From an uncultured Bacteriovorax sp. (GTDB lineage Bacteria; Bdellovibrionota; Bacteriovoracia; Bacteriovoracales; Bacteriovoracaceae): a stretch of DNA of 64,000 nt. The first letter of the stretch is position 1. Each line of letters starts with the position of its first letter. The position numbers were made by a program, and so were the translations under genes. Positions 15,548-30,610 of the stretch are shown in pieces. Below the pieces are notes generated by a model. The model did not search any database and was not told where the DNA came from. It saw only the letters and a list, made by a program, of their open reading frames with translations. Where the stretch lies: positions 1 through 64,000 of the forward strand of contig CAMLMH010000001.1 of NCBI GenBank assembly GCA_946481315.1, given 5' to 3'.

Positions 15548-16678
15548 ATGACAAAAAAAATAGACTCGCTTTATATCCACTTTCCTTTTTGTCTGCATTT
15601 ATGCAACTACTGCGATTTTTTCAAAAGAAAAAGTGATGCTTCAGAATCCGACCTTGAATTTTTTCATCAATTTTTACAGCGAAGCTGGATAGAACATGAA
15701 AAGCTGACTAAAGAGTATGGTTATTCTTTTGTTCCTCTAAAAACGTTGTATATCGGTGGGGGAACTCCATCCTTATGGGGCAGCAGGGGCGCAGCTTTTC
15801 TGCAGAATTTCCTTGCTGAAAAGGGAATTGCGCTGGATGACAAATGTGAATTTACCATTGAAGTTAATCCCCGTGCCTGGACATCGGAAGACATAGAGGC
15901 TTTCGAAGCTATTGGTACTAATCGGTTCTCTCTGGGCATTCAGACATTAAATCCAGGGGTACTTCCCTTGCTGGACCGAACTCATAATATTGACGACGTT
16001 TATGAAACGTTAACTTTTTTTCGCGATAAAAACGTGAACTTTTCTGTGGATTTTATGCTTGGTCTTCCGCGTTCTGCTCAATTTAAAAGAGACATTGCGG
16101 ATGAATTGAAGCAGGTATCTGCATATAATCCGAAACACTTCAGTGTCTATATACTGACTGTCAAAGACAATTATAAACACTATCTGGAATTACCTAACGA
16201 AGACTGGATTCACGACGAGTATATGCTGACCTCTGACACACTAAAAGGCATGGGCTACCAACATTATGAAGTTTCTAACTTTGCTTTTCCGGGCTTCGAA
16301 TCTGTTCACAATTTAAATTACTGGAATTCAAAAACAGTAGCGGCCTTGGGGGCATCTGCCACCGGTTTTTTAACTGAGGAACTGATACGCTATAAATGGA
16401 AGACTCAGGAAGCCCAACTGGAAAAGGAAATCCTTACAAAGAGTGAATTCAGATTAGAGCGAGTTTATATGGCCTTAAGATCATCCATCGGACTTTCTCA
16501 CGAAGATCTTGGAATAAGCAGCGCTGAGTTCAATTCTATTCTGGAGAAATGGAAAAAAGCCAATATCGTTCAGGAAATTAATCCTAGAGTTAAGTTGAAT
16601 TCCGCGGGATATCTGATTCTGGACTCTCTTATGAATGATCTTTTTCCATTTCTGGATTATCATAAGAGTGATAGCTAA
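15548..16678 (+). CDS. hemW: HemW-like radical SAM protein
   Basis: This 376-residue protein belongs to the coproporphyrinogen oxidase-like radical SAM family, now mostly viewed as the heme chaperone HemW. It has YIHFPFC with the cluster cysteines at 15, 19 and 22 (CLHLCNYC), then GGGTPS and the conserved FSLGIQT and DFMLGLP stretches. Cys22 is followed by Asp-Phe-Phe; this short motif does not by itself separate HemW from HemN, but the protein lacks the longer N-terminus of HemN. It is treated as housekeeping rather than part of the peptide cluster, although its last 50 bases overlap the convergent oxygenase gene. Confidence 0.85.
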   Translation: MTKKIDSLYIHFPFCLHLCNYCDFFKRKSDASESDLEFFHQFLQRSWIEHEKLTKEYGYSFVPLKTLYIGGGTPSLWGSRGAAFLQNFLAEKGIALDDKCEFTIEVNPRAWTSEDIEAFEAIGTNRFSLGIQTLNPGVLPLLDRTHNIDDVYETLTFFRDKNVNFSVDFMLGLPRSAQFKRDIADELKQVSAYNPKHFSVYILTVKDNYKHYLELPNEDWIHDEYMLTSDTLKGMGYQHYEVSNFAFPGFESVHNLNYWNSKTVAALGASATGFLTEELIRYKWKTQEAQLEKEILTKSEFRLERVYMALRSSIGLSHEDLGISSAEFNSILEKWKKANIVQEINPRVKLNSAGYLILDSLMNDLFPFLDYHKSDS

Positions 16679-17252
16679 CATTCATTATTATGTGATAACG
16701 CTTCTCTTCTGAGAGATTTACTGCTCGATGACGCTTACTAATTAGTACCAGAAATGCAGAGCCATCTGCTGGCAAATGATGACGACTGTCTTCATAATCA
16801 AAAAAACACTGCTCGTTGGTAATAAGTGGAATGTGCAACCTAAAAGCATTCTCTCCACTCGATTGATCACCATCAACGTGCCAATATGCATCTTCTTCAG
16901 GGTGTTTCTCCAATACAGCTATTCGAATCCGGGAGAGTTTTATTCCGGGAATTGACCTTTCAATAAGCTGGATCACTTCTTTGAAGTAGCCTCGATAAAG
17001 AGGAGTTGGTGTTGTAAATTCATTTGTAGAGAAAAATTCACGTAATGAATTTATTTCATCTTTCGGAACTGTAGGATCATTAACCTTTTCTCCGGTTTGC
17101 CAGCCATCATGTATGCTTCCATCTGAAGAAGTAATAGACCAGCCTCCCCAGGGGCCATTTTTCTTCATATTAGGTGGAAACTCGGCAATGACTCTTTCCA
17201 ACTCTTCCCGCAACTTTTGAATATCAAATTTTATATCTAGTTTAATAATCAT
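16629..17252 (-). CDS. Asp/Asn beta-hydroxylase-like oxygenase
   Basis: This 207-residue cupin-fold protein resembles the aspartyl/asparaginyl/prolyl hydroxylase group of Fe(II)/2-oxoglutarate oxygenases. The likely iron ligands are His125 and Asp127 (WHVDGD) and His175 (KRHRAVN); Arg138 and Arg185 are candidate 2-oxoglutarate ligands (RLHIPL, KRYH). It is the last gene of the precursor operon (18623-16629), two bases after the previous oxygenase, which suggests it hydroxylates the 47-residue peptide. It overlaps the HemW gene end by 50 bases. Confidence 0.78.
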   Translation of the reverse strand: MIIKLDIKFDIQKLREELERVIAEFPPNMKKNGPWGGWSITSSDGSIHDGWQTGEKVNDPTVPKDEINSLREFFSTNEFTTPTPLYRGYFKEVIQLIERSIPGIKLSRIRIAVLEKHPEEDAYWHVDGDQSSGENAFRLHIPLITNEQCFFDYEDSRHHLPADGSAFLVLISKRHRAVNLSEEKRYHIIMNVSYHSYDNPEMEKDHS

Positions 17253-17254
17253 AA

Positions 17255-18139
17255 TTATTTTTTGAAAAAAGGTGTGATCAAACCTTCAGAGAAAATTTCA
17301 AATGGGTGAGCTACGCCGTAATATTTATTGCTGGACCAGACTTGTCTTATTGGATCAAAATCAAACCAGGGAGTGACTCCGCAAATCATATTTGTTCTGG
17401 AGCTTGTGGCATTAGCTTTTGCAAATGGCCTGTGGTTCTTGTGAGAATTATAAACGTAAACTTGACCCGGTATTAAAGCAAACTCCTGGAAGTCGACTTT
17501 GTAGGGATCGGAAGGATCTTCACTCATTAACTGAATGACATACTCCGGTCCAGAGACCACTGGCACATTAATTCTCAAATTTAAGAAAACTGTTTCATCT
17601 CTATGCCACATATACTCAGTTTTTTTAATATCATCATGACCGGGTGTCATGATTGAGATTCTTGAACGAATGAGGGGGAGCTGAAAGCTATCCAACAATG
17701 TGCCAATGCTTTTGTAATGGGAAAAGGGTGTTCGCTGATTAAAACTGAGTGTATCAGCATATGTATTTTTCAGTCCGGCTTGAATTAAATCTGCACTTCC
17801 GGAGGAATATTTTGAAGACCCCAATGTGTTCTGGTGAGGATCCTGAGAGAGACTATCAATTGAAAAAGGGTTCCAACTAAGCGAAGCTGATAAATAGCTT
17901 TCAAAAAAACTTTCTACTTTGTTATAGCGAAAGGGATAAACGCCGAATTCTTTAACGGCATTCTGAATATCAGATTGTAATTGCTGTATAGGAAAATCCA
18001 AATGAGCTGTACGATAATTATCTGGAAAATTTCGAAAATTTTGAATTTGTTTCTTGAAATCAGTATGTCGATAGATAAATTCCTCTACCGTACAATCGTC
18101 GGGGATATCTGATACTTCAATCGCCCAGTTACCGGCCAT
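17255..18139 (-). CDS. Larger Asp/Asn beta-hydroxylase-like oxygenase
   Basis: In this 294-residue protein the C-terminal half is cupin-like: His179 and Asp181 (MWHRDE) as probable iron ligands, the RINVPV strand, His233/His236 (SHKNHRPFA) as third ligand, and Arg248 as a possible 2-oxoglutarate anchor (SSRTN), followed by PWFDFD. The N-terminal 150 residues are unrecognised and may bind substrate. AAGGA precedes the ATG. It sits between the PqqD-like gene (15-base gap) and the second oxygenase, so all act on the same substrate, probably the precursor peptide. Confidence 0.75.
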   Translation of the reverse strand: MAGNWAIEVSDIPDDCTVEEFIYRHTDFKKQIQNFRNFPDNYRTAHLDFPIQQLQSDIQNAVKEFGVYPFRYNKVESFFESYLSASLSWNPFSIDSLSQDPHQNTLGSSKYSSGSADLIQAGLKNTYADTLSFNQRTPFSHYKSIGTLLDSFQLPLIRSRISIMTPGHDDIKKTEYMWHRDETVFLNLRINVPVVSGPEYVIQLMSEDPSDPYKVDFQEFALIPGQVYVYNSHKNHRPFAKANATSSRTNMICGVTPWFDFDPIRQVWSSNKYYGVAHPFEIFSEGLITPFFKK

Positions 18140-18154
18140 TGTGTTCCTTAAGGA

Positions 18155-18451
18155 TTAATTTTCCAGAGGAGATTCGTGAAATGTAATGAGTTTATTATTT
18201 TCCAGATCAGCTAATAGCTTTTCGATTTCGTCTTTAAAAAGACCAGCGTTTAAATTTTGCTCTTTTTCCAGCTCAGTAATTAAATCCTGCAGCTTTCGTT
18301 CACCTGTGAATTTTCGACAGAGATGAGCAGCGATACCATCGATTGAAAAGCCTCGATTGGTGGCTGGGTTGAACAGAAAAAATTCTTCTTTGCTTGTATT
18401 GCTTGGGAATATTTGTGCAGATATTTTAGGAAATAGATTGTTGTATTTCAT
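18155..18451 (-). CDS. PqqD-like peptide-recognition protein
   Basis: The 98-residue protein has the pattern of PqqD-type RiPP recognition elements: an N-terminal strand region, then FFLFNPATNRGFSIDGIAAHL, followed by helices with regularly spaced leucines (LQDLITELEKE, DEIEKLLADLENN). In known systems this fold binds the leader of a precursor peptide and delivers it to modifying enzymes. It lies 28 bases downstream of the 47-residue peptide gene and 15 bases upstream of an oxygenase. No clear Shine-Dalgarno is seen, suggesting coupling to the peptide gene. Confidence 0.8.
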   Translation of the reverse strand: MKYNNLFPKISAQIFPSNTSKEEFFLFNPATNRGFSIDGIAAHLCRKFTGERKLQDLITELEKEQNLNAGLFKDEIEKLLADLENNKLITFHESPLEN

Positions 18452-18479
18452 TGTAACTATTTACAGGTGAGCATTACGA

Positions 18480-18623
18480 TTAATAACAAGCACCTGCTCC
18501 CACTGGACTAGATGGTACAATAAGACTGATAATTTGAATCGCAGTCAAAGGTTTTAATGTCCCAAAATAAGGTTTTTCTCCCTCAGGGCCTTTTTCATCA
18601 GTTTTGTTTTCGTCGTCACGCAT
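18480..18623 (-). CDS. Candidate RiPP precursor peptide (47 aa)
   Basis: This small gene encodes 47 residues. The front is charged and acidic (MRDDENKTDEKGPEGEK); a hydrophobic stretch TAIQIISLIV follows, and the tail reads PSSPVGAGACY. AAGAGGT sits about ten bases before the ATG, and a TTGGTA-N17-TATACT promoter lies 27 bases upstream. The next gene is a PqqD-like protein, followed by two hydroxylase-like oxygenases. Short length, charged leader, distinct small-residue tail and this context are what a RiPP precursor looks like. The modified residues are unknown; the terminal Cys-Tyr, the Ser-Ser-Pro and the Asn/Asp of the front are candidates. A small membrane-active peptide is an alternative. 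Confidence 0.75.
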   Translation of the reverse strand: MRDDENKTDEKGPEGEKPYFGTLKPLTAIQIISLIVPSSPVGAGACY

Positions 18624-18649
18624 ATAAAATTAACCTCTTAATAAATACA

Positions 18650-18678
18650 AGTATAAAGTAAACTCTCTAATTTACCAA
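18650..18678 (-). promoter_or_regulatory. Promoter of the precursor operon
   Basis: On the minus strand TTGGTA (18678-18673), a 17-base spacer and TATACT (18655-18650) match the sigma70 pattern. Transcription would start near 18643, giving a short leader of about 20 bases that includes the AAGAGGT ribosome-binding site. Confidence 0.6.
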
Positions 18679-18899: not shown

Positions 18900-20237
18900 A
18901 TGAAACTGCTGATTATAAAAAGCCAGGATGAATCAACGTGGGGTAGCTGCAAGGTCATTTCGCCCAACTTGCATGAGTTATACAAAAAGCTAAAAGCTCC
19001 TAATCAGGTTGACTGGTTTGCAGTGCCGGTTGAGTTGCTTAAGAGCGAAGTTAGTTCAAGAGATTCGGCGATAACTTTGCTGAAAGAAAAAATCCAGACT
19101 TTTAACCCTGATCGAATAGTCTTTGTTGATCATCTTCCCGTTCCAGCTTCTATACTGGGGCATTTGTCACTGCATATGAATTTAAATCGCCTTCCTCCGA
19201 TGGTGTTTCATCTTTATGGTGATTTTACATATTTCGCAAGTGAGTGGCTTTTTCTAAACACTGAACTTCGCGGGCACAGGTTAAAATTTATTGTAGCTTC
19301 CCAGTCCCAAAAGAGATTAGTCGAACAATTTCTTGAAAAGAAAGAAGGCGTTCACAAGCTTTGCTTTCCAGTGAATCGACTGGATTATTTTTATTCTGCC
19401 GAAGAAAGGAAAAGTAAAAGAGAAGAACTAAAAGTCAGCAAAGAAGATTTTATCATTCTCTACTCCGGAAGAATCAGTCTGCAAAAAAATGTAGATGTTC
19501 TACTTGAGGAGTTTTCCCGTCTGAAAAAAAACAATCCTAAGTTTAAGCTCTGGATTGTTGGTGCCTTTGATGACGTTGGGGCAGAGTTTTTGGGATACAG
19601 TACTTTCAACGGTTATATGTTTCAAAAAATCCAGACACTCTTGCAGGGCATGGATGAGTCCGTAAAGAAAGACGTCATTTTTTGGGGTCACAAACCTAAA
19701 ACAGAGCTGCGTAAACTGAAGGCTGCTGCTGATTGTTTCATAAGCTTGAGTTTATATCACGATGAAGATTATGGCATGTCTCCGGCAGAAGCACTGGCGA
19801 CAGGATTACCTTCCTTGCTGACTGACTGGGGGGGATATTCTTCTTTTGCGGATGAAGGAGATTGGGATTGTAAGCTTGTACCTGTCCAGATTTCTGAATT
19901 CGGACTTGAAATAGACTGCAGTCAGATAGGCATTGAGATAAGCAGAATAATTTCCGCAGGAATGAATGATAAAAGACGAAGCGAATACTCAGAATGTTTC
20001 CATCGTAAGTTTTCAATTGAAAGTAATGTTTCTGCTCTTGAAAATATTCTCAAGAGTGAAGTCCCTCGTTTTGCAGGATTTAACTGGCTTTATGAGCAGT
20101 ATTCCAATGCAATGGGAATGAATTGGTCCAAGAGCAAACTGAATAAATTTCTCAATCCGGATCGAAGAACCTTTTATTACAGCATTTATCGCAATTATAT
20201 TTCAAAAGAGTGCAAGGAAGAAACTAATGGCCAGTAA
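18900..20237 (+). CDS. GT4-like glycosyltransferase (copy 1)
   Basis: This 445-residue glycosyltransferase has a GT-B fold. The C-terminal half has the group-1 pattern: YSGRISLQKNVDVLLEEF, KLWIVGAFDD, an FWGHKPKTELRKLKAAADCFISLS block, and the nucleotide-sugar site HDEDYGMSPAEALATGLP with the E-x7-E arrangement. It should transfer a sugar from an activated donor to an acceptor that cannot be read from sequence. It opens a plus-strand operon with 1-11 base overlaps and is duplicated at 21219. No membrane segment is seen. Confidence 0.85.
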   Translation: MKLLIIKSQDESTWGSCKVISPNLHELYKKLKAPNQVDWFAVPVELLKSEVSSRDSAITLLKEKIQTFNPDRIVFVDHLPVPASILGHLSLHMNLNRLPPMVFHLYGDFTYFASEWLFLNTELRGHRLKFIVASQSQKRLVEQFLEKKEGVHKLCFPVNRLDYFYSAEERKSKREELKVSKEDFIILYSGRISLQKNVDVLLEEFSRLKKNNPKFKLWIVGAFDDVGAEFLGYSTFNGYMFQKIQTLLQGMDESVKKDVIFWGHKPKTELRKLKAAADCFISLSLYHDEDYGMSPAEALATGLPSLLTDWGGYSSFADEGDWDCKLVPVQISEFGLEIDCSQIGIEISRIISAGMNDKRRSEYSECFHRKFSIESNVSALENILKSEVPRFAGFNWLYEQYSNAMGMNWSKSKLNKFLNPDRRTFYYSIYRNYISKECKEETNGQ

Positions 20238-21219
20238 TGAAATTATTCAGTGGAGTTATGATTTTATTCAGAATTTTTACCTGAATAATGTTGAAACTAT
20301 CTCCGATACAGAAAAAATTTATCTGAATTATTTATCACCTTTTGGCGACAAGTTTTATGGTCCCACCAACCCTGTTTTACTCTTGGGGGGAGCCGATCTC
20401 GGTCAATTGATGAAAAAAGACATATGGACCTTAAGAGATGGTTTAATTCCTCTGAGTGTGTTTTTTAAAGAAAATACTCTGAATGAAAAAAAGCTAAATC
20501 TACTAATTCATAAAGATTTATGGTTTTTAGTTCCGGAAAAATGGCGGAACTCTGTTAACTATTATTCAATCGAAGCGAATCAGAGATTTTCTGCTAAACA
20601 ACCTCCTAAAAAGTTAATCATCATGGGCTCACCAAATGAAACACTGGCTGACCCTGAAGAGTTTTGTGAAGATGTCGAATATCTTGCAAAAAAATTAGGT
20701 AAAACTAACATTGAAAAAATGGATATTGTGGGCTTCTTTCCCAATAAGAGAACGGATTTATGGGGGCGTTGGCAAGATGAAAATATTTTTGGTTATTCAA
20801 AAGTGCTTTTCAAAAATCTAAAACTCGACATTCATTTTCCAGAGTGGCAAATCCTTAAATCTGAAATGAACTTAAGCGATACACTTTATTATGAAATCAA
20901 CCGCGGGCATTTTATAAAGGATACTTTTCCTAAGCATCTTTTCCTTTCCAGAGGAGCAGGCTTGCTGGAAAGTGAAGATGAAAAAAGCCCGATGATTCCA
21001 ACTAACAATGTTAAGCTTAGTCTTTATCACAGCATGCAAATTTATAAACTGGATGAAAAGAATTGTGGAAAGTATATTGATCCAATGTCAGATGAGCTTA
21101 TGCCTTATCTGAGAAAGATCATTGAAAAAGGAACCAACCCACGTAATGTTGGGGCAAGCTGGGAAAAATGGTTCGGTACTTTTATTAAAAAACATTATAA
21201 AAATCAAGAGCTGATCTAG
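20227..21219 (+). CDS. Unknown partner of the glycosyltransferase (copy 1)
   Basis: This 330-residue soluble protein belongs to no family I recognise. It overlaps the glycosyltransferase by 11 bases and the next glycosyltransferase by 1. Features conserved with its paralogue at 22545 include IIQWSYDFIQNFYLN near the start, LYLNYL, RDGLIPLS, DLWFLVPEKWR, an FFPNKRTDLWG motif mid-protein, YYEINRGHFIKD, and a C-terminal WEKWF. The constant pairing with a glycosyltransferase suggests an accessory subunit or an enzyme acting on the same glycan. Confidence 0.6.
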   Translation: MASNEIIQWSYDFIQNFYLNNVETISDTEKIYLNYLSPFGDKFYGPTNPVLLLGGADLGQLMKKDIWTLRDGLIPLSVFFKENTLNEKKLNLLIHKDLWFLVPEKWRNSVNYYSIEANQRFSAKQPPKKLIIMGSPNETLADPEEFCEDVEYLAKKLGKTNIEKMDIVGFFPNKRTDLWGRWQDENIFGYSKVLFKNLKLDIHFPEWQILKSEMNLSDTLYYEINRGHFIKDTFPKHLFLSRGAGLLESEDEKSPMIPTNNVKLSLYHSMQIYKLDEKNCGKYIDPMSDELMPYLRKIIEKGTNPRNVGASWEKWFGTFIKKHYKNQELI

Positions 21220-22541
21220 TGAAGAAAAAAGCATTAATCATTCGGTCATCAAAACAATCGTTGTGGGGAAGCTGTAAGGTTATTTCTCCCAATCTTCAGG
21301 CTTGCTATTCAAAGCTAAGCAGTCTTGAACTGCATTATTTCGATATTGCAGATGATTTCTTGAAAAAAGAACTAACAGAAGGAACCGAAACCCTCCAGGC
21401 TTTGGCTGATAAAATAACCACTCTAAAACCTGACGGATTGATCTTTATTGACCATGAACCAACAGCACCTAAGATCTTATCGTTTCTTAGTTTTTATATG
21501 CCAGTTCAGAAACTTCCACCGCTGACTTTTCACATCTATGGTGACTTCACTTTTTTCGCAAATGAATGGAAGCATTTAGGAACAAAAATTAAAGATCACC
21601 CGGTTAAACTTATTGTCGCATCTGAGGCACAAAAAAAATTAATGAGTTTCTTCTGTCATGACGATCAATCACTTGAACAGTTTTTATTTCCAGTGAATAA
21701 ATCTGATTACTTTTTTGATTCTGATGAGCGCAAGCTGACGAGAGATCTTCAGGGAGTCAATCCTGATGAGAGAATAATCCTTTATTCTGGTCGGGTGAGT
21801 CTCCAAAAAAATGTCGACCTCATTATCCAGGAATTTCCGGAACTTTATAAAGCACACCAGGGAAAGTTGAGACTTTGGATTGCAGGAGCTTTTGATGATA
21901 TGGGTGCTCCTTTTATGGGAGTAAAACATCATGATGGTTTTATGTTCGCAAAGCTTCAGGCTTTAATTGAATCACTGCCGGGTGAAATTAGTAAAAACAT
22001 AACACTTTTTGGACAAGTTAATAAAACAAAATTAAGACAGCTTAAGAACGCTGCGGATTGTTTTATCAGTTTGAGTCTTTATCATGATGAAGATTTTGGA
22101 ATGTCTCCTGCTGAAGCTCTAAGTTGTGGACTCCCAAGTTTGTTAACCGATTGGGGAGGATACTCCTCTTTTGTTGGGGATGGCTGGAACTGCAAGCTTC
22201 TTCCGGTTCAGCTTTCACCTTATGGCCATGAATTAGAAATGAAAACTTTGCATTCTTTCGTGGGTGACATTTTTACCAACGATCAATTTGCCAAACGAAA
22301 AGAATATGCTGAAAACTTCCAGAAAAAATTCTCGATCGAAAGCTCAGCCCCTCAGTTAGAAGAAATACTGCTGAAGCCTTTTAAAAAATTTGCCGGTTTT
22401 AAATGGAACCTGGGGTATTTCTCAACAGAATACTGGACTGTAGATATTGGAAGGGAGATCAGTAAACAGCTGACGCCATCAAGTGATAATTTTTATGCAG
22501 AGGTGTATTCAAATTACATTTCTGGAAAAACGAAGGTGTAA
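21219..22541 (+). CDS. GT4-like glycosyltransferase (copy 2)
   Basis: This 440-residue paralogue of the glycosyltransferase at 18900 is recognisably similar from end to end (WGSCKVISPNL near the start, YSGRVSLQKNVDLIIQEF, HDEDFGMSPAEALSCGLP). Its start codon overlaps the upstream stop by one base (the TAG/GTG junction at 21219). It probably acts in sequence with copy 1 on the same acceptor or uses another donor; the C-terminal 60 residues differ most. Confidence 0.85.
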   Translation: MKKKALIIRSSKQSLWGSCKVISPNLQACYSKLSSLELHYFDIADDFLKKELTEGTETLQALADKITTLKPDGLIFIDHEPTAPKILSFLSFYMPVQKLPPLTFHIYGDFTFFANEWKHLGTKIKDHPVKLIVASEAQKKLMSFFCHDDQSLEQFLFPVNKSDYFFDSDERKLTRDLQGVNPDERIILYSGRVSLQKNVDLIIQEFPELYKAHQGKLRLWIAGAFDDMGAPFMGVKHHDGFMFAKLQALIESLPGEISKNITLFGQVNKTKLRQLKNAADCFISLSLYHDEDFGMSPAEALSCGLPSLLTDWGGYSSFVGDGWNCKLLPVQLSPYGHELEMKTLHSFVGDIFTNDQFAKRKEYAENFQKKFSIESSAPQLEEILLKPFKKFAGFKWNLGYFSTEYWTVDIGREISKQLTPSSDNFYAEVYSNYISGKTKV

Positions 22542-22544
22542 TTT

Positions 22545-23534
22545 ATGAATAATTCAATTGTGCAATGGGGTTTTGATCTTGTCAGAAACTCTTATCTTAA
22601 CCGCGATAAAGAAATTGAAGAAAAAAATGAACTTTATTTAAATTATTTGGCTCCTTTTTCCATGGAATTCTTTTCGGGAAATCATCCCATTCTTTTATTT
22701 GGCGGACATGATTTTGCCGAAGTTACAAAAAAAGGAAATATAACAATCAGGGATGGCTTAATACCGTTGAGTTTATTTTTTCAGAATACTAAGCCCGAAG
22801 AGATTGATGGGATTCTTTATGTTCATTGTGATTTCTGGTTTGTTGTACCGGAGGAATGGCGGCCTAAAATAAAATATTATCGAATTAAAGCAAAGCAAGT
22901 CTATAATGGCGACAAAACACCAAAAAAAATATTGGTGACGGGGCTGCTTAATTCTACACTCGCTGATCCAGTTGAATTCGATTCAATGCTTAAACATCTT
23001 AAAGAATCGATTGGTTCGGAAAAGATAGGTCAAGCAGAAATTTTGGCTTTCTTTCCGGAAAAAAGAACAGATCTATGGGGTTCATGGGAAGAGGATAATA
23101 TTCTGCGCTTTTCAAAATCAATATTTAATAATCTCGGTCTGAATGTGGCGACACCGGCCTGGAAAGACCTGGCAACAGAAACTGATTTCAATGATTATTT
23201 GTATTACGAAATAAATTCTGGTCTATTCATTAAAGATTCATATGTTCAGCATCGGATCTTATCCCGCGGAGGAGGGCTACTGGAAGAAAAGAGTAGTGAT
23301 TTCTTCCGAAAAAGTGGAGAAGTAAAAGCCTCTTTATATCATTCTTATGAACTTTTTGAATTAAATCATGAGTCGATAAAGCTAGCCAGTTCCCCCTTTC
23401 CGACAGAAAAAATTCCTTATTTTAAACGTATCGCCGAGCATGAGTTCAATAGTGTTAAACTAAACTTTGATTGGGAAAAATGGTACGCTTACTATATTAA
23501 AAAAATGATAAAAGACCGACACTCTATTAAATGA
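22545..23534 (+). CDS. Unknown partner of the glycosyltransferase (copy 2)
   Basis: This 329-residue paralogue of the 20227 protein has matching blocks (IVQWGFDLVRNSYLN, RDGLIPLS, DFWFVVPEEWR, FFPEKRTDLWG, YYEINSGLFIKD, WEKWY). No known family is recognised. Genes 18900-21219 and 21219-23534 therefore represent a duplicated two-gene unit. It is followed by a 4-base overlap with the next gene. Confidence 0.6.
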   Translation: MNNSIVQWGFDLVRNSYLNRDKEIEEKNELYLNYLAPFSMEFFSGNHPILLFGGHDFAEVTKKGNITIRDGLIPLSLFFQNTKPEEIDGILYVHCDFWFVVPEEWRPKIKYYRIKAKQVYNGDKTPKKILVTGLLNSTLADPVEFDSMLKHLKESIGSEKIGQAEILAFFPEKRTDLWGSWEEDNILRFSKSIFNNLGLNVATPAWKDLATETDFNDYLYYEINSGLFIKDSYVQHRILSRGGGLLEEKSSDFFRKSGEVKASLYHSYELFELNHESIKLASSPFPTEKIPYFKRIAEHEFNSVKLNFDWEKWYAYYIKKMIKDRHSIK

Positions 23535-24481
23535 ATGAATTACAAAGTGTAATTTTAACCAATGCTGATTCGCGTGACTGTCAGCAACTGTTTGCGAAGG
23601 CTGGACAATGGTTCAATAAGGGTATTATCGAGCAACGGCCTGTGCTTTATTCAGATTCATATAAAGTTTATACCTCAGAAAGTGTAACGACCTTGGGAAT
23701 AAAAAAAGCAAAGAACCTGATAGCAATGTGTACTTTCATTGTTCTATCTGAAGATCAGACCATTTATCTGACCGATTTTATAACTGATCCCGAAATAGAT
23801 GATGTCAGGGTCGTGTCTTACCTCCTCAGAGAATTGGATAAGCAATTCAGCAAACTGCCGGTTCGCTATCGTTTGACGGCAATCGAGCAGTCACTGAATG
23901 CACTTGAACCACTAACGAAAATTCTGTCCAGATATGATTACAATACTGATTTTAGTAATTTTCTATATCAACATGTCTGGAATTTACAGAGTATGGAAGA
24001 AGAAATTCCAGCTTTGGATAATGATTTGCTTATTCCACTAGCAACTATGCTGGCAGATAAATCTTTCGAGGTAAGTGCTTTAAACCATTCCTTGCCGCTT
24101 CTGAATGCAAAGATTCTCATGTCAATATCCCGACTGGACAAGGACGCAACAGTTATACTGTCACGAATAGACAAAAAGCCCATGGCCATAATTTTTTCAG
24201 ATGATAGCAGCCGACATTATATAGTGAATGAAAAGCGAGTCTGTAAAAACAATCTAATTATTCTGGATAGTCGCGTGTTAGAGATGCCTGAGAAAATAAT
24301 CCTAACGGCTATGCATTTCACTTTGAAGCAAAAGAAAGATCTATTGGTATTTAATCATTCACGCTTAGTAAAGTTTTCTGCGGTTAAAGCATTTGTCTAT
24401 CAGAAGAGAATTATGAATAGTTTTCATGTTTGCAATAAACTAAATCCTGTTTTGTCAGTTCACGCTGGATTTAATTCATGA
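23531..24481 (+). CDS. Unknown protein, possibly acyltransferase-like
   Basis: This is a 316-residue soluble protein with no certain family. The N-terminal 130 residues alternate strands and helices in a way that could fit a GNAT-type acyltransferase fold, but the acetyl-CoA binding motif is not evident, so this is only a guess. It overlaps both neighbours by 4 bases, putting it firmly in the operon between the glycosyltransferase module and the ATP-grasp enzyme. Confidence 0.5.
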   Translation: MNELQSVILTNADSRDCQQLFAKAGQWFNKGIIEQRPVLYSDSYKVYTSESVTTLGIKKAKNLIAMCTFIVLSEDQTIYLTDFITDPEIDDVRVVSYLLRELDKQFSKLPVRYRLTAIEQSLNALEPLTKILSRYDYNTDFSNFLYQHVWNLQSMEEEIPALDNDLLIPLATMLADKSFEVSALNHSLPLLNAKILMSISRLDKDATVILSRIDKKPMAIIFSDDSSRHYIVNEKRVCKNNLIILDSRVLEMPEKIILTAMHFTLKQKKDLLVFNHSRLVKFSAVKAFVYQKRIMNSFHVCNKLNPVLSVHAGFNS

Positions 24482-25647
24482 AGAGACTGGCATATGCAAA
24501 TTTATTTATCGATAACGATTGGGATACCGAAAAAATACTAGATAGAATTTTTAAGGTTCGAATACAAAGTACACAATCTATTCTTGAATCATACAATACA
24601 TTTGGTCACTTTTTTTCAGGAGAACATGATTATGTATTAATGGAATCCAGGAATGACCCTGATTTGCTGGCTTTTTGGAATCAGTTTTTTTCAGTTGCAG
24701 AAGAAGTCAGTTTAAATGACCTTGGGAAAATTAAGGTCGATAGTCTGTCTTTTGTGGGGATTTCAACAAAAGAAGAAGCGCTGGCTGCTCACTTCAATTT
24801 AACTCTAACGAGTAGCAGTCATAAATATATTGAACTAAACTCCAAGGATCTTCTTTGGAAAATGGCTATCAGGAATAATATTAATTTCCCGCCAACTGAA
24901 CTAATCGGTATTAATGAACTAAAAAACGTTAGTCCCGGAACGGTTTTGAAGTTCCTCACCAGCTCAGGAGGACGTGGTGTACTCATAATTGATGAGAAGA
25001 AAAAAGATTTACCGGGATATTTTGCAGAACAATTAACTGAAATAAAACCAAACTTAAAGCTACTTAAACAGAAATTCGTATCGATTAAAAATAATTTTTA
25101 CACTCTCGCTGATACCGAAACAAATTTGGTTCATGGTTTCCGGATTGATTATGATTTATCTAATAGTTCCCGTCGTCATGTCCCCGAACTGAATATTAAT
25201 GCTGAAAGAACGAGAGCAGCTCATCAGCTGGCACAAGAATTAAAATCTCTTGGTTATCATGGTTCTTTTGGATTTGATGGGTTTGAGGATGTTAATGGAG
25301 ATATATATCCGGCGATAGATCTTAACGTCAGGATAGACAAAGCCAGATTTATTCATGAAGCTGCCAAAAAATTTGGAATATCTCATTTAAACTTTGAGTT
25401 CAGAAGAGAGAGAGTGTTTGGAGTTCCCTTTAGCAATTTTAAAGAACTCAAAAAAACGTTATTGGATGTACTTGAAGTTTCCGGCTATAAATGTATTCCG
25501 GTCATATGTTCCAATATGTTCAGCATGGATTCTAAGCCCCGACAAATGGAATTCAGTTTTTTTGTAGTAATTACGAATAAAAATGCTGACAGCTCAGCAT
25601 TGCATTCCTGGTCGGAAAAAATGGTTAAATTGTTAGAAAAAAGGTGA
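24478..25647 (+). CDS. ATP-grasp family ligase-like protein
   Basis: In this 389-residue protein the central and C-terminal parts fit the ATP-grasp fold: a Lys before a glycine-rich loop (VLKFLTSSGGRGVLII, about residues 157-172) and the metal-binding end DLNVRIDKARF (about residues 280-290). Such enzymes join a carboxylate to an amine or thiol via an acyl-phosphate. The N-terminal 110 residues are unusual. Standing before a PLP-dependent decarboxylase-like gene, it could condense an amino acid or amine with the pathway product. Confidence 0.7.
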   Translation: MKRLAYANLFIDNDWDTEKILDRIFKVRIQSTQSILESYNTFGHFFSGEHDYVLMESRNDPDLLAFWNQFFSVAEEVSLNDLGKIKVDSLSFVGISTKEEALAAHFNLTLTSSSHKYIELNSKDLLWKMAIRNNINFPPTELIGINELKNVSPGTVLKFLTSSGGRGVLIIDEKKKDLPGYFAEQLTEIKPNLKLLKQKFVSIKNNFYTLADTETNLVHGFRIDYDLSNSSRRHVPELNINAERTRAAHQLAQELKSLGYHGSFGFDGFEDVNGDIYPAIDLNVRIDKARFIHEAAKKFGISHLNFEFRRERVFGVPFSNFKELKKTLLDVLEVSGYKCIPVICSNMFSMDSKPRQMEFSFFVVITNKNADSSALHSWSEKMVKLLEKR

Positions 25648-25651
25648 TGAC

Positions 25652-26782
25652 ATGATTGATTTTGATACTGCAATTAATTCTCTCATTTTCCACCAAACGG
25701 ACGACCGGCCATTTTTTATTTATTCCGCAGAAAAATTGAAAAGTAATGTCGATGACGCCAAATCGATGCTGAGAAAGTTAAACTTAGTCACAAGCGGCTC
25801 GCAATTTTATTACTCTGTTAAAGCAAATCCCAATAAGACATTAATTGATGAAATTCTAAAAAATTGTAACGGGCTGGACGTAAGTTCAGAACGTGAACTT
25901 GAGTATGTTCTGCAGCAAGGTTTGCTCGGTGACCAAATTACGGTCAGCGGCCCTGCCAAGACTGATCGCTTTTTAAAACGCGCGGTGCAGGCCGGAGTAA
26001 AGGTTATACATATTGATAATAAAGAAGAATATGAACTTTTAGCTGAACTTCCGGCAACTAAATCTACTTATTCTTTGCGCATCAATATAGATGATAAATC
26101 ATCAAAGCTTGGACTGAAGCCGGAAGATGCAGAAAAAATCCTTAATACTAATAGCTTAAATATAATTGGATTTCACTTTTACCTGGGCCGCGAGAGCTTT
26201 TCCGAGCTGAAGATTATGGATGCTCTCAATCAGATACTACCTCTTGCTGATAGGTTCTATGCAAAAAAATCTCTAGATCTTTTTATTGGCCCGGCTTTTC
26301 CTTCCGGTCTGGATGTAAATCATTTAAGTATAATCAGCCATCCTCTACTGGAGCGGCCGGAGATACAAATTCATTTTGAAATGGGCAGAGTGATTGCTGA
26401 AACATCAGCCCGTTATTGTGCCAAAGTTCTGGCTGTAAAAGAAAACAGAAATGGCAAAAAGGAAATAATTATCAATGGTGGAATTCAGCATCTTTCTTCA
26501 ACTTTAATATCGATTAAAAGAAAAGAGGCGGTTCATGTAAGTAGAGTGGGTAAAAATGCTCAGCAGAAATGTGAGGCTAACATCTATGGAAGTCTATGCC
26601 TGAGCAATGATCTTATTTTCATCACAGATGAATGTCCACCGGACATAAAGCGTGGAGATTGGTTGCAGTTTTTTCCCTGTGGTGCGTATAATTTATCAGC
26701 AAGTGCTGTTGATTTCATCATGCAGGACCAGGCCCGAGAATACATAATTCGATCTAATAATATTGAAGAGATTAGCAGATGA
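25652..26782 (+). CDS. PLP-dependent decarboxylase-like protein (fold type III)
   Basis: This 376-residue protein belongs to the diaminopimelate/ornithine decarboxylase group. The PLP lysine lies in FYYSVKANPN (about residue 53); other landmarks are GLDVSSERELEYVL, SSKLGL, IGFHFYLGRES and the C-terminal GAYNLSASAVDF. AGGTGATGAC precedes the ATG. It is unlikely to be the housekeeping lysA because it sits in an ATP-grasp/carrier-protein operon. Similar enzymes occur in non-ribosomal or exosortase-linked biosynthetic loci, where they make an amine or act on a carrier-bound amino acid. Confidence 0.8.
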   Translation: MIDFDTAINSLIFHQTDDRPFFIYSAEKLKSNVDDAKSMLRKLNLVTSGSQFYYSVKANPNKTLIDEILKNCNGLDVSSERELEYVLQQGLLGDQITVSGPAKTDRFLKRAVQAGVKVIHIDNKEEYELLAELPATKSTYSLRINIDDKSSKLGLKPEDAEKILNTNSLNIIGFHFYLGRESFSELKIMDALNQILPLADRFYAKKSLDLFIGPAFPSGLDVNHLSIISHPLLERPEIQIHFEMGRVIAETSARYCAKVLAVKENRNGKKEIIINGGIQHLSSTLISIKRKEAVHVSRVGKNAQQKCEANIYGSLCLSNDLIFITDECPPDIKRGDWLQFFPCGAYNLSASAVDFIMQDQAREYIIRSNNIEEISR

Positions 26783-28059
26783 CCCTGAAACAATTTGAAG
26801 ATACTTTAAACAATCTAGAAGAGCATCTTGTAAAAATACTCGGGTCAGCAAATTACTTTCTGGTTGTTGTAGCTGTTTTGCTTTTTTTCGGGATGTTCAA
26901 TTATTTCTTTCATAATTCACTGTCTCGTCTTGGTATTAAATTACTGCATTACCCTAATATCGCCGGAGCTTTTAATGTCATCACCCATCTGATTTTTTCC
27001 TCATGCTTGATGCCATTACTTCCCAGCAGAAGAATGAGGACAATTTTTACAATAATCGTTCTATGCTGCATCTGGTGTCTGCACGTGACATACAGTCTGG
27101 GCTGGGGCATGGTCACTCCATCCATATTATTTTTTTTCCCATTATTGGCAGCATTTAGTTTTCTTTGTCTAAATCTTAATTGGTCCAGGTACAAAGTTGT
27201 TATTTTTTTTATATCCGGATTTGTAATCCTGATGGCAAGTATGAAGGTATTTCCCGGAGATTGGGTCTGGCTCTATAAAAAAAAGTGGAACATATATTTT
27301 TTCTTCATCCTGGCATTTATTATCACTCGGGTTAAGCTAACGAGAGAATCGCTTTTACTGCTTACTTTTTCACCGGCGCACATTGCTTTGCCTGTTAATT
27401 ATCCCATTCCAGAAAAAGATAATTATGAATTGGATAATCGTGAAATCTGGATACGTGGAATTGTAAACCTGGCCAAAGCATACATCCTTGTGGTGATTAA
27501 TATGTATCTGGTGCGAACTTTTCTCTCCAGGCCAGTTGTAGGGTTAAATAATTCCTGGATGGTTTATATAAGTTACTTGTTCACGGCAACGGTCGTCGGG
27601 AATTTCGTGACCGGACTTGCACGAATTTATATGGTAAAAGTTGCCGATTGCTCAAATTTTCTGTGGTTAAGCTCTTCGCCGCTGGATTTTTTTAAGCGTG
27701 AAAATGTACACGCTTATTTGTTTTCAATTCGGTTTTTCTATTTTAATTTTTTAAAACTTACCCGAAACATGGGAATTATCGTTCTTTGTTACTTTCTCAT
27801 TTTTCCTCTTTACCGGAACTCCCTGGATCTGATTACGTTTAACAATTTTTTAAGTTCAAAAGTTTTTCTTCAGTATGTGGGACCCACTTACGTATTTTGG
27901 TTTACTCTCTTTACATTAATTGCCTCAACTTATCGTCTTAAGTTCTTTGCCCGACCAAGTTGGCGTACCTGTCTAGTGACCCATTTATTAATGCTTGTCT
28001 GTTTTCATATGGTTTTCAGTGAAGAGTACAGTTTTATGGGGTTAGGGTTGCGATTTTGA
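26779..28059 (+). CDS. Polytopic membrane protein, possibly MBOAT-like
   Basis: This 426-residue protein has about ten hydrophobic segments. The stretch SPLDFFKRENVHAYLFSIRFF recalls the region around the invariant Asn/His of membrane-bound O-acyltransferases (FW-RRWH), but the catalytic histidine context is not conserved, so it may be a degenerate relative. A similar arrangement occurs in the protein at 36375. It overlaps the upstream decarboxylase by 4 bases. A role in moving or acylating a lipid- or carrier-linked intermediate is inferred from neighbours only. Confidence 0.5.
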   Translation: MTLKQFEDTLNNLEEHLVKILGSANYFLVVVAVLLFFGMFNYFFHNSLSRLGIKLLHYPNIAGAFNVITHLIFSSCLMPLLPSRRMRTIFTIIVLCCIWCLHVTYSLGWGMVTPSILFFFPLLAAFSFLCLNLNWSRYKVVIFFISGFVILMASMKVFPGDWVWLYKKKWNIYFFFILAFIITRVKLTRESLLLLTFSPAHIALPVNYPIPEKDNYELDNREIWIRGIVNLAKAYILVVINMYLVRTFLSRPVVGLNNSWMVYISYLFTATVVGNFVTGLARIYMVKVADCSNFLWLSSSPLDFFKRENVHAYLFSIRFFYFNFLKLTRNMGIIVLCYFLIFPLYRNSLDLITFNNFLSSKVFLQYVGPTYVFWFTLFTLIASTYRLKFFARPSWRTCLVTHLLMLVCFHMVFSEEYSFMGLGLRF

Positions 28060-28066
28060 TGTTTCA

Positions 28067-28094
28067 TTGCCTTTTAAGCATATTAGCTTATAAT
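28067..28094 (+). promoter_or_regulatory. Internal promoter for a possibly leaderless carrier-protein transcript
   Basis: TTGCCT (28067-28072), a 16-base spacer and a perfect TATAAT (28089-28094) lie directly before the carrier-protein ATG at 28102, seven bases after the -10. Transcription would begin at or next to the A of the ATG, and no Shine-Dalgarno sequence is present in the gap. Confidence 0.5.
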
Positions 28095-28101
28095 CTTTTT
28101 C

Positions 28102-28356
28102 ATGACGTCAATTGCTGTACAGGTTAAAGAAATACTTGGTGAAATCAATTCCACCTCGGTTCAGCACGCCATCAAGCCAGATGATAATCTATTTGAAATG
28201 GGAATATTGGATTCTCTGACAATGGTTCAGTTTATCGTGGCAGTTGAAAATCGCTTCAAGATTAAAATTGCAAATCGCGATATCAATTATGAGACTTTCA
28301 CTACAATTGGTGAGATTGAAAAGTTTCTATCCACAAGAGTAAGCAAGAATGAATAA
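28102..28356 (+). CDS. Acyl or peptidyl carrier protein
   Basis: This 84-residue four-helix carrier protein has the phosphopantetheine site ILDSLTMVQF; Ser38 is the modified residue. Acidic helix-II context and length are normal, and the FEMGILDSL wording is close to DltC-type aminoacyl carriers. It overlaps the following desaturase gene by 8 bases, suggesting that the carrier presents an acyl chain to that desaturase or an aminoacyl group to the Dlt-like set 5 kb away. Confidence 0.88.
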   Translation: MTSIAVQVKEILGEINSTSVQHAIKPDDNLFEMGILDSLTMVQFIVAVENRFKIKIANRDINYETFTTIGEIEKFLSTRVSKNE

Positions 28357-29161
28357 AACCATTGCTTATCTTTATGCCAACTGGTTAATCATTCTTATCA
28401 CTGTTTTGTTTTGCCAGATCTTTCCCTGGCTTTATCTGATTGGCTTTTTCCTCATTGCCAGCAGACAGTTTGCTATTTATCTCGTGGGACATGAAGGTCT
28501 GCATGGGCTTATTACTAAGAATTCATTTTTCAATGATTACATCACAAAATATTTTTGCTTATTTCCGGTACTTGTTTCGCTAGAAATGTACCGCACTAAC
28601 CACCTTGCCCATCATCGCTTCTTAGGAACAGCCGTTGATCCAGACAGAAATTTATATAATTTCTACCCAGTAAAGAAGGAGACTTTTTTTAAATCACTTT
28701 TTCAAAGTTATTTCAACCTCAAGTTGTTGAAAGATTTCCTTAGATATTTCACACCTTTTTATCTTTTAAAAAAGATGGGGGGCGCAAAGGCACTGAAGAA
28801 GGGAGATTTCCTGGAGTATTTTATTTATCTGACTTTGACACTGCTCTTTCTCGCAGTTACTGGTTTGTGGTTTATTTATCTTAAATACTGGCTTGCCCCA
28901 CTGCTGTTGATGATCCCGTATTACTATTTTGTCAGCGCCCTTCAACACGGTCTTATCCATGAAAATGCTGAAGGACAAAATTCACGAAACATCAAAGGAT
29001 CAGGACTGGCGATGGAGTTTCTCCTTCCATGTAAGACAAATTTTCATGGAACTCACCATGATTATCCCGGTGTCGCATGCTGGGAACTGGCCAAGGTAGC
29101 CGAAAAACAAAATACTCCTGCAGAAAGCTATTCCGAAGCGGTCGCCAAATTACTCACGTGA
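28349..29161 (+). CDS. Membrane fatty-acid desaturase-like protein
   Basis: This 270-residue di-iron membrane enzyme has the three histidine boxes HEGLH (48-52), HLAHH (85-89) and HGTHH near residue 234, with hydrophobic segments between them. The family desaturates or hydroxylates acyl chains. Coupling to a carrier protein suggests a carrier-bound acyl substrate rather than bulk lipids. It ends the plus-strand operon and overlaps the convergent permease gene by 8 bases. Confidence 0.85.
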   Translation: MNKTIAYLYANWLIILITVLFCQIFPWLYLIGFFLIASRQFAIYLVGHEGLHGLITKNSFFNDYITKYFCLFPVLVSLEMYRTNHLAHHRFLGTAVDPDRNLYNFYPVKKETFFKSLFQSYFNLKLLKDFLRYFTPFYLLKKMGGAKALKKGDFLEYFIYLTLTLLFLAVTGLWFIYLKYWLAPLLLMIPYYYFVSALQHGLIHENAEGQNSRNIKGSGLAMEFLLPCKTNFHGTHHDYPGVACWELAKVAEKQNTPAESYSEAVAKLLT

Positions 29162-29891
29162 AAAACTTTTTTCTCTGATGGGTAATTAGATAATCAAAAG
29201 AATAATAAAGAAAAAAACCAGTAAGACTCAGAAAGTATACACCTGAATATACATTAATGAGTTTAAACTGATCCCAGGATCTCCAGATATAATACCCAAT
29301 ACCATTATTACTTGTGGTTGTTTCACTTACCACAACCAGAGTTAGACCGTAATTAACAGCAAGCTTCATTCCGGTTAATATTTCTAATTGAGCTCCTTTT
29401 AATAGATAATGATAGATAAAATCCAGTCTTTTTAGTGGATAGATGGCCAGGATCTCAGCCGTTTTTCCTGATATTAATTTTTTAAAGCCTATTCTGGAAT
29501 TAATGAATACCGGATAAAAAATACCGACAGAAATCAAAGCGATTTTTGATTTTTCATCAATACCGAAAACCAACAGCATTAATGGAAAGATTGCTACTTT
29601 GGGCAATGGAAACGTCAGAGCTACAATCGGATTAAAAATCTGATCGACGATATTAAATTTTGCACAAGCGGCAGCAAAAAAAATAGCGAGCGGAAACGTT
29701 ATCGTTATTGCTACAAAGAGACGGCCAAAACTCGACCAGATATCCATTAAGAAGTATTGATCTGTAAGGAGAGTCCCTAAATTTTTTATAACAGCGAATG
29801 GGGATGGATAAAAAGCAGAGTCTATCAGCTGGATATTAACCAGCAAGTGCCAAGCTATCGCTGCTGCTATGATTGTAAGAATACTTCTCAT
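29154..29891 (-). CDS. ABC importer permease, sulfonate/nitrate type
   Basis: This 245-residue integral membrane permease of the SsuC/TauC/NrtB group has about six hydrophobic segments and a cytoplasmic loop near residues 150-175 that should contact the ATPase (KTAEILAIYPL...). It is the last gene of a three-gene importer operon with 4-base overlaps. The substrate cannot be read from sequence; taurine, sulfonate, nitrate, or pyrimidine precursors are the family range. Confidence 0.85.
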   Translation of the reverse strand: MRSILTIIAAAIAWHLLVNIQLIDSAFYPSPFAVIKNLGTLLTDQYFLMDIWSSFGRLFVAITITFPLAIFFAAACAKFNIVDQIFNPIVALTFPLPKVAIFPLMLLVFGIDEKSKIALISVGIFYPVFINSRIGFKKLISGKTAEILAIYPLKRLDFIYHYLLKGAQLEILTGMKLAVNYGLTLVVVSETTTSNNGIGYYIWRSWDQFKLINVYSGVYFLSLTGFFLYYSFDYLITHQRKKFFT

Positions 29892-30610
29892 TGCTGATCC
29901 TTTTTATAAAAGGCATGGATTGTTGCAAATTGAGTAGCATAGTTTGGTTTATTTTTTTCTGATGCTAAATCTTCTGTGTGCTGAGCTTCTGGTGAGCGGA
30001 TCAGTATATTCTCAGTAAGTTTTTTTTCATGACGGGAGAGAAATGAAATAGTGTGGCTTAAGTATATTGCTTCATCTATGTCGTGGGTAACCAGAATGAT
30101 AGTTGGTTTGTAGTCCTTCCAGAGCTCAATAGTAAAGTTATATAAATCTTCTTTTTGTATTTGATCCAGATGTGAAAAAGGTTCATCAAGTAAAATGATC
30201 TCCGGTTTATTCAGGAAAGCTCTTAATAGGTTAAACTTTTGCTTAGTTCCACCAGAAAGAGCATTGGGCGCATAATCCAGATAGCTCTTGAGCTTGAATC
30301 TTTCCAGCCAGCTGTTTGTATTAAGTTTAAGTCCCGAAGAGAGCTCTATATTTTTACGTATCGTTAGCCATTCGAAAAACGCCTGTTCCTGAAAAACGAA
30401 TGAAATTTTTTTTGCACTTATTTCACGCTTGCCGGCTGACTGTTTAGTCATGCCGGCAATTAATTTCAAAAGCAGGCTTTTTCCTGAACCAGTTGTTCCG
30501 ATAATAGTATGAATACAGTTCTTTTCTACATTCAGATTCAGGCCGTTTAGTATTTGGCTGTTTCCAATGGCCAGCTGTATGTTTTCGAGAATGACTGAAT
30601 ATTCTTTCAT
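29888..30610 (-). CDS. ABC importer ATPase
   Basis: This 240-residue nucleotide-binding subunit has Walker A GTTGSGKS (near residue 40), the Q-loop FVFQEQAFF, the signature LSGGTKQKFNLLRA (slightly unusual, Thr-Lys where Gln/Met-Arg is common), Walker B IILLDEPF and the switch histidine VTHD. It powers the permease and binding protein encoded beside it. Confidence 0.9.
   Translation of the reverse strand: MKEYSVILENIQLAIGNSQILNGLNLNVEKNCIHTIIGTTGSGKSLLLKLIAGMTKQSAGKREISAKKISFVFQEQAFFEWLTIRKNIELSSGLKLNTNSWLERFKLKSYLDYAPNALSGGTKQKFNLLRAFLNKPEIILLDEPFSHLDQIQKEDLYNFTIELWKDYKPTIILVTHDIDEAIYLSHTISFLSRHEKKLTENILIRSPEAQHTEDLASEKNKPNYATQFATIHAFYKKDQQ

Follow-up and report, generated by a model that had tools for sequence, protein, structure and literature searches.

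We analysed a 64,000-nucleotide stretch of DNA from an uncultured Bacteriovorax sp. (contig CAMLMH010000001.1, positions 1 to 64,000), called the window throughout, and we describe here a small peptide gene and the putative biosynthetic genes that accompany it. Four genes are tightly packed on the minus strand at 16629-18623, with intergenic gaps of 28, 15, and 2 bp. The first one encodes a peptide of 47 amino acids (18480-18623), whose motif is present once in the window. It is followed by the gene for a PqqD-like recognition protein of 98 amino acids (18155-18451) and by the genes for two putative 2-oxoglutarate (2OG)/Fe oxygenases, Ox294 (17255-18139, 294 amino acids) and Ox206 (16629-17252, 207 amino acids by its open reading frame, ORF), the latter from the Asp/Asn-hydroxylase family. 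The 3′ end of the Ox206 gene overlaps a convergent gene at 15548-16678. All four genes lie at the place given by the first-pass annotation, which had read them as a compact operon for a ribosomally synthesized and post-translationally modified peptide (RiPP). The RiPP-type reading is well supported by the conserved precursor, the PqqD fold, and the linked oxygenases, and we consider it very likely that the peptide is a RiPP precursor served by these enzymes. However, "compact" proved too narrow, because glycosyltransferases, and two radical S-adenosylmethionine (SAM) enzymes where the core has Cys, also belong to the system.

The start of the peptide gene was examined as well. The sequence AAGAGG lies 10 nt upstream of the ATG, and AGAGG is kept at a similar place in three of the four relatives that share the core type of the window peptide (type A; G008, G016, and G017 but not G001, where G numbers denote genomes and L numbers loci). 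This agrees with the good ribosome-binding site proposed at first. A promoter of its own had also been proposed for the peptide. A sigma-70-like site is indeed present upstream, but a scan of both strands found 3 such sites versus 2.2 expected from shuffled sequence, so the proposal does not rise above chance.

Precursor family and its carriers

With the window peptide as a single query, 21 homologues were found among 5.8 billion proteins, and a profile that included divergent relatives gave 66 homologues (65 at E ≤ 3.2e-4 and one at 0.097). Several of them bear the source name Bacteriovorax sp. The window peptide consists of a variable charged front (residues 1-19), the block FGTLKPLTAIQIISLI (residues 20-35, encoded at 18519-18566 on the minus strand), and the core VPSSPVGAGACY (residues 36-47), which ends in Cys-Tyr; the charged front and the tail are as first described. 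By our reading, the border between leader and core would lie between residues 35 and 36. Among the 21 aligned homologues, the front differs in both length and sequence, and the last 28 residues hardly vary. In the family as a whole, conservation is highest not in the tail but in the block ahead of it, FGxLxPLTAxQIIxLL. For instance, FGx[LIV]xP[LM]TxxQ[IV] occurs in 66/66 homologues (LxPL in 58 of them, and IxPL, VxPL, or IxPM in the rest), and F, G, and Q of the block are invariant in 17/17 aligned precursors, the most divergent included.

Meanwhile, several core types were found: the window type (type A), Cys-rich tails such as INSDNSAGACACACACGGPCY and LNAEPTMAACVY, and the Cys-less VGTTGSNSSYGGY, with further cores such as ACACACACGGPCY and NAEPTMAACVY. 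All 66 homologues end in Tyr (41 in Cys-Tyr, 21 in Gly-Tyr, and 4 in Val-Tyr), where 45 of the 66 were found by the profile only and 16 of its 17 rows end in Tyr. Cys is present in 45 of the 66 cores, and the 21 Gly-Tyr cores have none. Thus, the tail conservation that had been suggested as a check holds within the window type and for the terminal Tyr, but the tail differs between the types. In addition, pN/pS (the ratio of nonsynonymous to synonymous variation) was 0.20 over the 28-residue block in 5 type-A genes and 0.24 over the 16-residue block in 11 genes. The sequence variation indicates that the peptide is a real gene under purifying selection and not a chance ORF, and the 47-residue gene of the first-pass annotation is upheld by its homologues and its pN/pS. 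The precursors had no match to family models besides a chance one of P0086 to CheB (E 0.13). In short, the conserved recognition block with a variable C-terminal core is what a small RiPP precursor family has.

To see the distribution of the family, 129 genomes of the class of UBA6153 and 368 genomes of the phylum were searched. Peptide matches were found in 12 of the class genomes, and 10 were left after reading; one of these carriers, G089, has two precursor genes. The weak matches in G090 and G103 were rejected as unrelated frames without the block or the ending. Among the phylum genomes, 13 had matches, and the same 10 plus G350 were left after reading. The weak matches in G243 and G267 were rejected for the same reasons, and the frame in G267 is presumably akin to ribosomal protein L13. 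In the G350 precursor, the tail is rich in Cys and Gly and its last residue is Trp. Furthermore, a scan of GTDB contigs with strict patterns gave one confirmed locus among 13 candidate stretches, and this was the Bacteriovoracaceae metagenome-assembled genome UBA6153, which is G001. The window DnaK shares 92% identity with that of G001 and 93% with that of G006, and therefore the window belongs to the carrier group.

The oxygenase Ox294 follows the peptide closely. At E ≤ 1.9e-114, it was found in exactly the 10 peptide genomes among the 129; these genomes are related, and the co-occurrence carries no probability figure. The other matches in the class were a fragment in G008 and a distant one in G030 (2e-39), with no recognisable precursor in the 19 kb of G030 that were read. 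In nine of the ten carriers, Ox294 and the peptide are no more than about 6 kb apart, and in G008 the two do not share a contig. Thus, homologous loci keep the peptide, and loci lacking it, which would have spoken against the operon, amount to the single distant match in G030.

We also mapped the carriers onto a DnaK tree with 33 rows (the window, the best 30 DnaK matches, G088, and G089), in which 10 of 30 inner branches were left open and which does not include G350 or G008, the latter having no DnaK match. The carriers are scattered on this tree with 7 changes, of which at least 3 are forced by well-supported branches, and the number of changes was this low in 48-49 of 500 label shuffles. 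Such scatter points to repeated joint gain or loss of the genes.

The 98-residue protein passes the Pfam PqqD model PF05402 (25.4 versus a cut-off of 23.4 bits), and the profile of its family (A4) matches the solved PqqD structure PDB 3g2b (E 3.5e-4). The PqqD-like identity and the fold are thus supported. The PqqD profile matched 27 of the 129 class genomes: 9 of the 10 carriers at E ≤ 1.7e-32 and the other 18 genomes at 3.7e-9 or weaker. A match was also found in G350 (E 3e-11), so that a RiPP recognition element (RRE) of the PqqD fold is encoded with the precursor in these nine carriers and G350. The matches of G010 and G350 report one TAG each, and the open frames end there, so we took it as the terminal stop. 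The PqqD gene directly adjoins the peptide in 8 of the 10 carriers; in G010, some 20 kb lie between the two, and PqqD is next to the gene of the radical SAM protein F3b described below. As in the biosynthesis of pyrroloquinoline quinone (PQQ; PqqA, PqqD, and PqqE), a PqqD-fold recognition protein stands beside a small precursor. However, the PQQ-biosynthesis equivalog TIGR03859 was missed by the 98-residue protein (19.2 versus 46 bits), and the core and the enzymes are different.

The peptide could also work in its unmodified form, as a small membrane-active or signalling peptide, with the nearby enzymes acting elsewhere, for instance on a surface glycan. Its hydrophobic stretch AIQIISLIV would suit this role, as would the glycosyltransferases and the ABC-2-type exporter gene that adjoins in some relatives. 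However, the direct neighbourhood of PqqD, the co-occurrence with Ox294, and the pattern of a conserved block followed by a variable core are those of a precursor, and we regard an unmodified peptide as highly improbable.

Putative modifying enzymes and core types

Ox294 has 20 homologues besides its own record, and H179, D181, H236, and R248 (HxD...H...R) are invariant in 21/21 rows. Its predicted model (predicted local distance difference test, pLDDT, 87.5) has the fold of 2OG hydroxylases, and its identity to the listed solved structures does not exceed 18%. There was no Pfam match at E ≤ 1, PF05118 included, and one of the 21 family members matches PF05118 weakly (E 0.014); a search against plasmids gave no match. 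From the predicted fold and the invariant residues, Ox294 is taken to be a 2OG oxygenase. Meanwhile, Ox206, given without its Met, passes the Asp_Arg_Hydrox model PF05118 (26.4 versus 22.6 bits), and H124, D126, H174, and R184 (numbering one less than in the ORF) are invariant in the 5/5 rows of alignment A5, which holds five of the six strong Ox206 sequences, that of G088 being left out. The two proteins are homologous (hhalign 97%). So the two Asp/Asn-hydroxylase-like oxygenases of the first-pass annotation are both borne out, Ox206 by its Pfam score and Ox294 by fold, residues, and homology to Ox206. They share the fold and the metal/2OG residues (Ox294) or the family and the residues (Ox206) with AspH and proline hydroxylases, but Ox294 differs from these in its lack of a Pfam match, in its low identity to the listed structures, and in its company of a RiPP precursor and PqqD. 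Besides the window, Ox206 was found strongly (E ≤ 1.4e-87) in G001, G008, G016, G088, and G089, in the last two on another contig than the main precursor. It was weak in G010 (3e-8), with no match in G017 or in the Cys-less carriers G006, G009, and G013.

Four genes on the plus strand diverge from the peptide operon. A GT4-type glycosyltransferase (18900-20237, PF00534) starts 277 bp from the peptide and is followed by a partner protein without a Pfam match above cut-off (20227-21219), a second GT4-type glycosyltransferase (21219-22541, PF00534) that is 49% identical to one in L016, and a second partner (22545-23534) that is 42% identical to the first. A related glycosyltransferase was found within the 8-20 kb read around the peptide in 10/10 class carrier loci. 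Most of these come with a partner protein that matched no family model; in G009 and G006 (L021 and L022), the two form a single fused protein. The partner groups are mutually related (hhalign 97% for the two larger ones and 73% for the short one of the type-A relatives). A predicted structure of the partner, based on 3 sequences, had a mean pLDDT of 47.9 and was not used for a fold search.

Two radical SAM proteins are encoded farther along the plus strand of the window, F3a (49173-50825, PF04055), with a C-terminal HExxH...E stretch, and F3b (50830-52176, PF04055), which also passes the SPASM model TIGR04085 (35.4 versus 27). They directly precede grpE-dnaK-dnaJ-like genes, which were named by inspection. 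In the F3a alignment, HExxH and E454 are present in 8/8 rows and CX3CX2C in 7/8, being absent in the second locus of G089. The C-terminal stretch of F3a is perhaps a metallopeptidase part; a Peptidase_MA_2 match was seen in the L001 homologue only and below cut-off (22.7 versus 32.4). The window F3b is 58-65% identical to six aligned homologues, of the seven in class carriers (alignment A9 holds seven of eight F3b sequences, that of G008 being left out). Among the best scores of F3a and F3b were those against peptide maturases such as PapB, but they are far below every equivalog cut-off shown (for PapB, 89.3 bits for F3a and 67.2 for F3b versus 340). The MftC-type family was not among the best 25 of 45 families for F3b or the best 25 of 53 for F3a. 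Defence-system models were also run against eight window proteins. F3a and F3b matched viperin (pVip; E 5e-9 and 1e-12), and F3a matched Cas4d as well (0.007); the other six had no match. We rejected a viperin identity and read these matches as general radical SAM likeness.

We found that the enzyme set varied with the core type. The class carriers with a Cys core (G001, G008, G010, G016, G017, G088, and G089) have F3b in 7/7 and F3a in 6/7 cases, G017 being the exception for F3a. The Cys-less carriers have neither at E ≤ 1e-10. The window and G350, both with Cys cores, have both proteins, F3a being two separate ORFs in G350. Taken together, F3b was found with 9/9 and F3a with 8/9 Cys cores, versus 0/3 for the Cys-less ones. 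A Fisher test by hand on 9/9 versus 0/3 gives 1 in 220 with kinship ignored, and the Cys/radical SAM state requires 2 changes on the DnaK tree. In addition, Ox294 was found in every Tyr-ending class carrier, and G350, which ends in Trp, has no Ox294 match though PqqD is present. Thus, a change of core type is accompanied by a change of enzyme set, so that the assignment of enzymes to residues can be tested directly.

These results also bear on a plain thioether RiPP of the sactipeptide or ranthipeptide type, in which hydroxylation would be ornamental and the oxygenases secondary. Maturase-like radical SAM proteins, a Cys core, and a PqqD-type recognition protein are shared with these peptides, and the likeness to PapB and the joint presence of Cys and F3a/F3b favour such a product. 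However, the scores lie far under the PapB cut-off, and sactipeptides and ranthipeptides differ from this family with its oxygenases, glycosyltransferases, and Cys-less members. The Cys-less carriers lack F3a and F3b and keep PqqD, Ox294, and the glycosyltransferases; therefore, a thioether cannot define the family, and we consider this explanation quite improbable.

Proposed pathway and comparison with mycofactocin

PqqD-type proteins bind precursor leaders. In the proposed pathway, the PqqD-like protein would bind the block FGxLxPLTAxQIIxLL and present the C-terminal core to the modifying enzymes. According to a survey of RREs, the recognition sequence W/Y/LxxP/L/I is widespread and applies to several groups, among them PqqD (PMC12710340). 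The LxPL of the block fits this sequence loosely, and therefore we infer PqqD binding next to the core. The two 2OG oxygenases would hydroxylate or otherwise oxidise the core. Ox294 and the Tyr end both persist as the remainder of the core varies, so Ox294 is the best candidate for the Tyr end; it might act on or beside the terminal Tyr, possibly by oxidative decarboxylation, an assignment that we offer tentatively and with some hesitation. A plant 2OG enzyme is reported to decarboxylate a C-terminal Tyr oxidatively in cyclopeptide alkaloids (PMC12871766), and the radical SAM enzyme MftC does so in mycofactocin (PMC7491314).

Because F3b is found where Cys is, F3a and F3b are the best candidates for Cys chemistry, and it is fairly probable that they act on the core cysteines, most simply by forming a thioether. 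The glycosyltransferases and their partner would add a sugar to a core residue; as glycosyltransferases are constantly present, we lean slightly towards a glycosylated product. Finally, product release may fall to the HExxH part of F3a. Homology, co-occurrence, invariant residues, and folds were established directly, and PqqD-leader binding, substrate residues, step order, glycosylation, and release are inferred from them. On balance, we think it likely that this is a RiPP family working by this pathway; it was found in a single bacterial class, to which UBA6153 belongs, apart from one relative in another part of the phylum.

Several observations weigh against this pathway. The system is known here from genes alone. 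In the window, F3a and F3b are 31 kb from the peptide, and no counterpart was seen of the operon-type glycosyltransferase that the type-A relatives have. In G008, the peptide, Ox294/F3a, and F3b lie on three different contigs, and G017 (a 2.6 Mb assembly) has no PqqD, F3a, or Ox206 match. Furthermore, the Cys-less carriers each have a radical SAM gene of another type within 10 kb (F4, twitch-type as judged by its homologue in L016), and so do G010 and G016. The uniform Tyr end is weaker than it looks because a profile of mostly Tyr-ended rows favours Tyr-ended matches. In addition, the residue assignments are correlations in few genomes, 12 for Cys and radical SAM and one for Trp without Ox294.

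MftB is PqqD-like, and the end product of a mycofactocin-like pathway would be no peptide but a small glycosylated molecule, a redox cofactor or a metabolite, that derives from Tyr and is cleaved off the C-terminus. The PqqD-like chaperone, the radical SAM/SPASM protein, the glycosyltransferase, perhaps a peptidase, and the C-terminal Tyr all fit it, as do the four precursors ending in Val-Tyr and the type-A core, nearly invariant while its front varies. Indeed, mycofactocin has a small Tyr-ended precursor, the radical SAM protein MftC, the glycosyltransferase MftF, the peptidase MftE, and the partner MftB, and the part of the source on which we draw mentions no 2OG oxygenase, of which there are two here (PMC7491314). 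However, the cores of different types have little in common beyond the last residue, unlike a fixed cofactor, and 0/10 precursors matched a mycofactocin model of NCBIfam at E ≤ 10, where the filters of HMMER limit weak matches. Furthermore, the tested glycosyltransferases beside the precursor are GT4 (PF00534) and MftF is GT2, though there is one GT2 gene in the window at 44519-45496, and the Cys-less carriers do without F3a and F3b. The logic thus resembles that of mycofactocin with oxygenases added, but the precursor model does not match and the window peptide ends in Cys-Tyr instead of the Val-Tyr core of mycofactocin. We therefore regard a mycofactocin-like product as unlikely and prefer the RiPP pathway proposed above.

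No described class had been recognised by the first-pass annotation, and none was matched in the open-licence literature of PubMed Central as judged by titles and the beginnings of abstracts, where a description of this precursor or gene set was likewise not found. The available part of one report treats Bdellovibrionota RiPP clusters in general terms (PMC8067016). A bolder and rather doubtful reading is a new RiPP class defined by oxidation of the near-universal C-terminal Tyr through a dedicated RRE-guided 2OG oxygenase, with optional radical SAM Cys chemistry and glycosylation by a glycosyltransferase and a partner of unknown fold. The core would be exchangeable (Cys-rich, Cys-less, or Val-Tyr), and the Tyr step would be fixed. 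If this is true, Bacteriovorax relatives possibly make a decarboxylated, sugar-bearing peptide or cofactor. The family adds a precursor with at least four distinct core types and an uncommon combination of two 2OG oxygenases, two radical SAM proteins, and glycosyltransferases with their partner.

Neighbouring genes and related loci

The window segment 23531-37790 contains genes for an acyl-carrier protein (PF00550), a fatty-acid desaturase, an MBOAT acyltransferase, and an AMP-binding enzyme, together with ATP-grasp-like, decarboxylase-like, and ABC-transporter-like genes, the last named by inspection. Most genes of 23531-31599 are common to L001 (G001), where they lie beside the precursor locus and are partly reordered. 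Two more PF05118 proteins are encoded in the window at 39474-40115 and 43764-44522, the second directly after a radical SAM gene at 42862-43767.

G089 has a second precursor locus (L024, contig C35), where the core is FTGDALGAPCACGPCGGPCACGTPCY. This locus brings its own PqqD and Ox206, and its radical SAM homologue lacks CX3CX2C. In G030, G033, and G036 (L041, L042, and L043), a PqqD-like gene lies among glycosyltransferase, partner, and F4 genes, with an exporter-like gene in G033 and G036. The stretches read there hold no precursor motif or Ox294 of this family, and they are perhaps related pathways with other precursors. Meanwhile, a family of ABC-2-type exporter permeases was found in four carriers (L021 4631-6167, L022 5305-6823, L023 9922-11440, and L037 4316-5753). 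The permease and a second ABC gene adjoin the precursor operon or, in G010, PqqD and F3b. For the L021 permease, the one tested, the nearest NCBIfam models were polysaccharide exporters, below cut-off.

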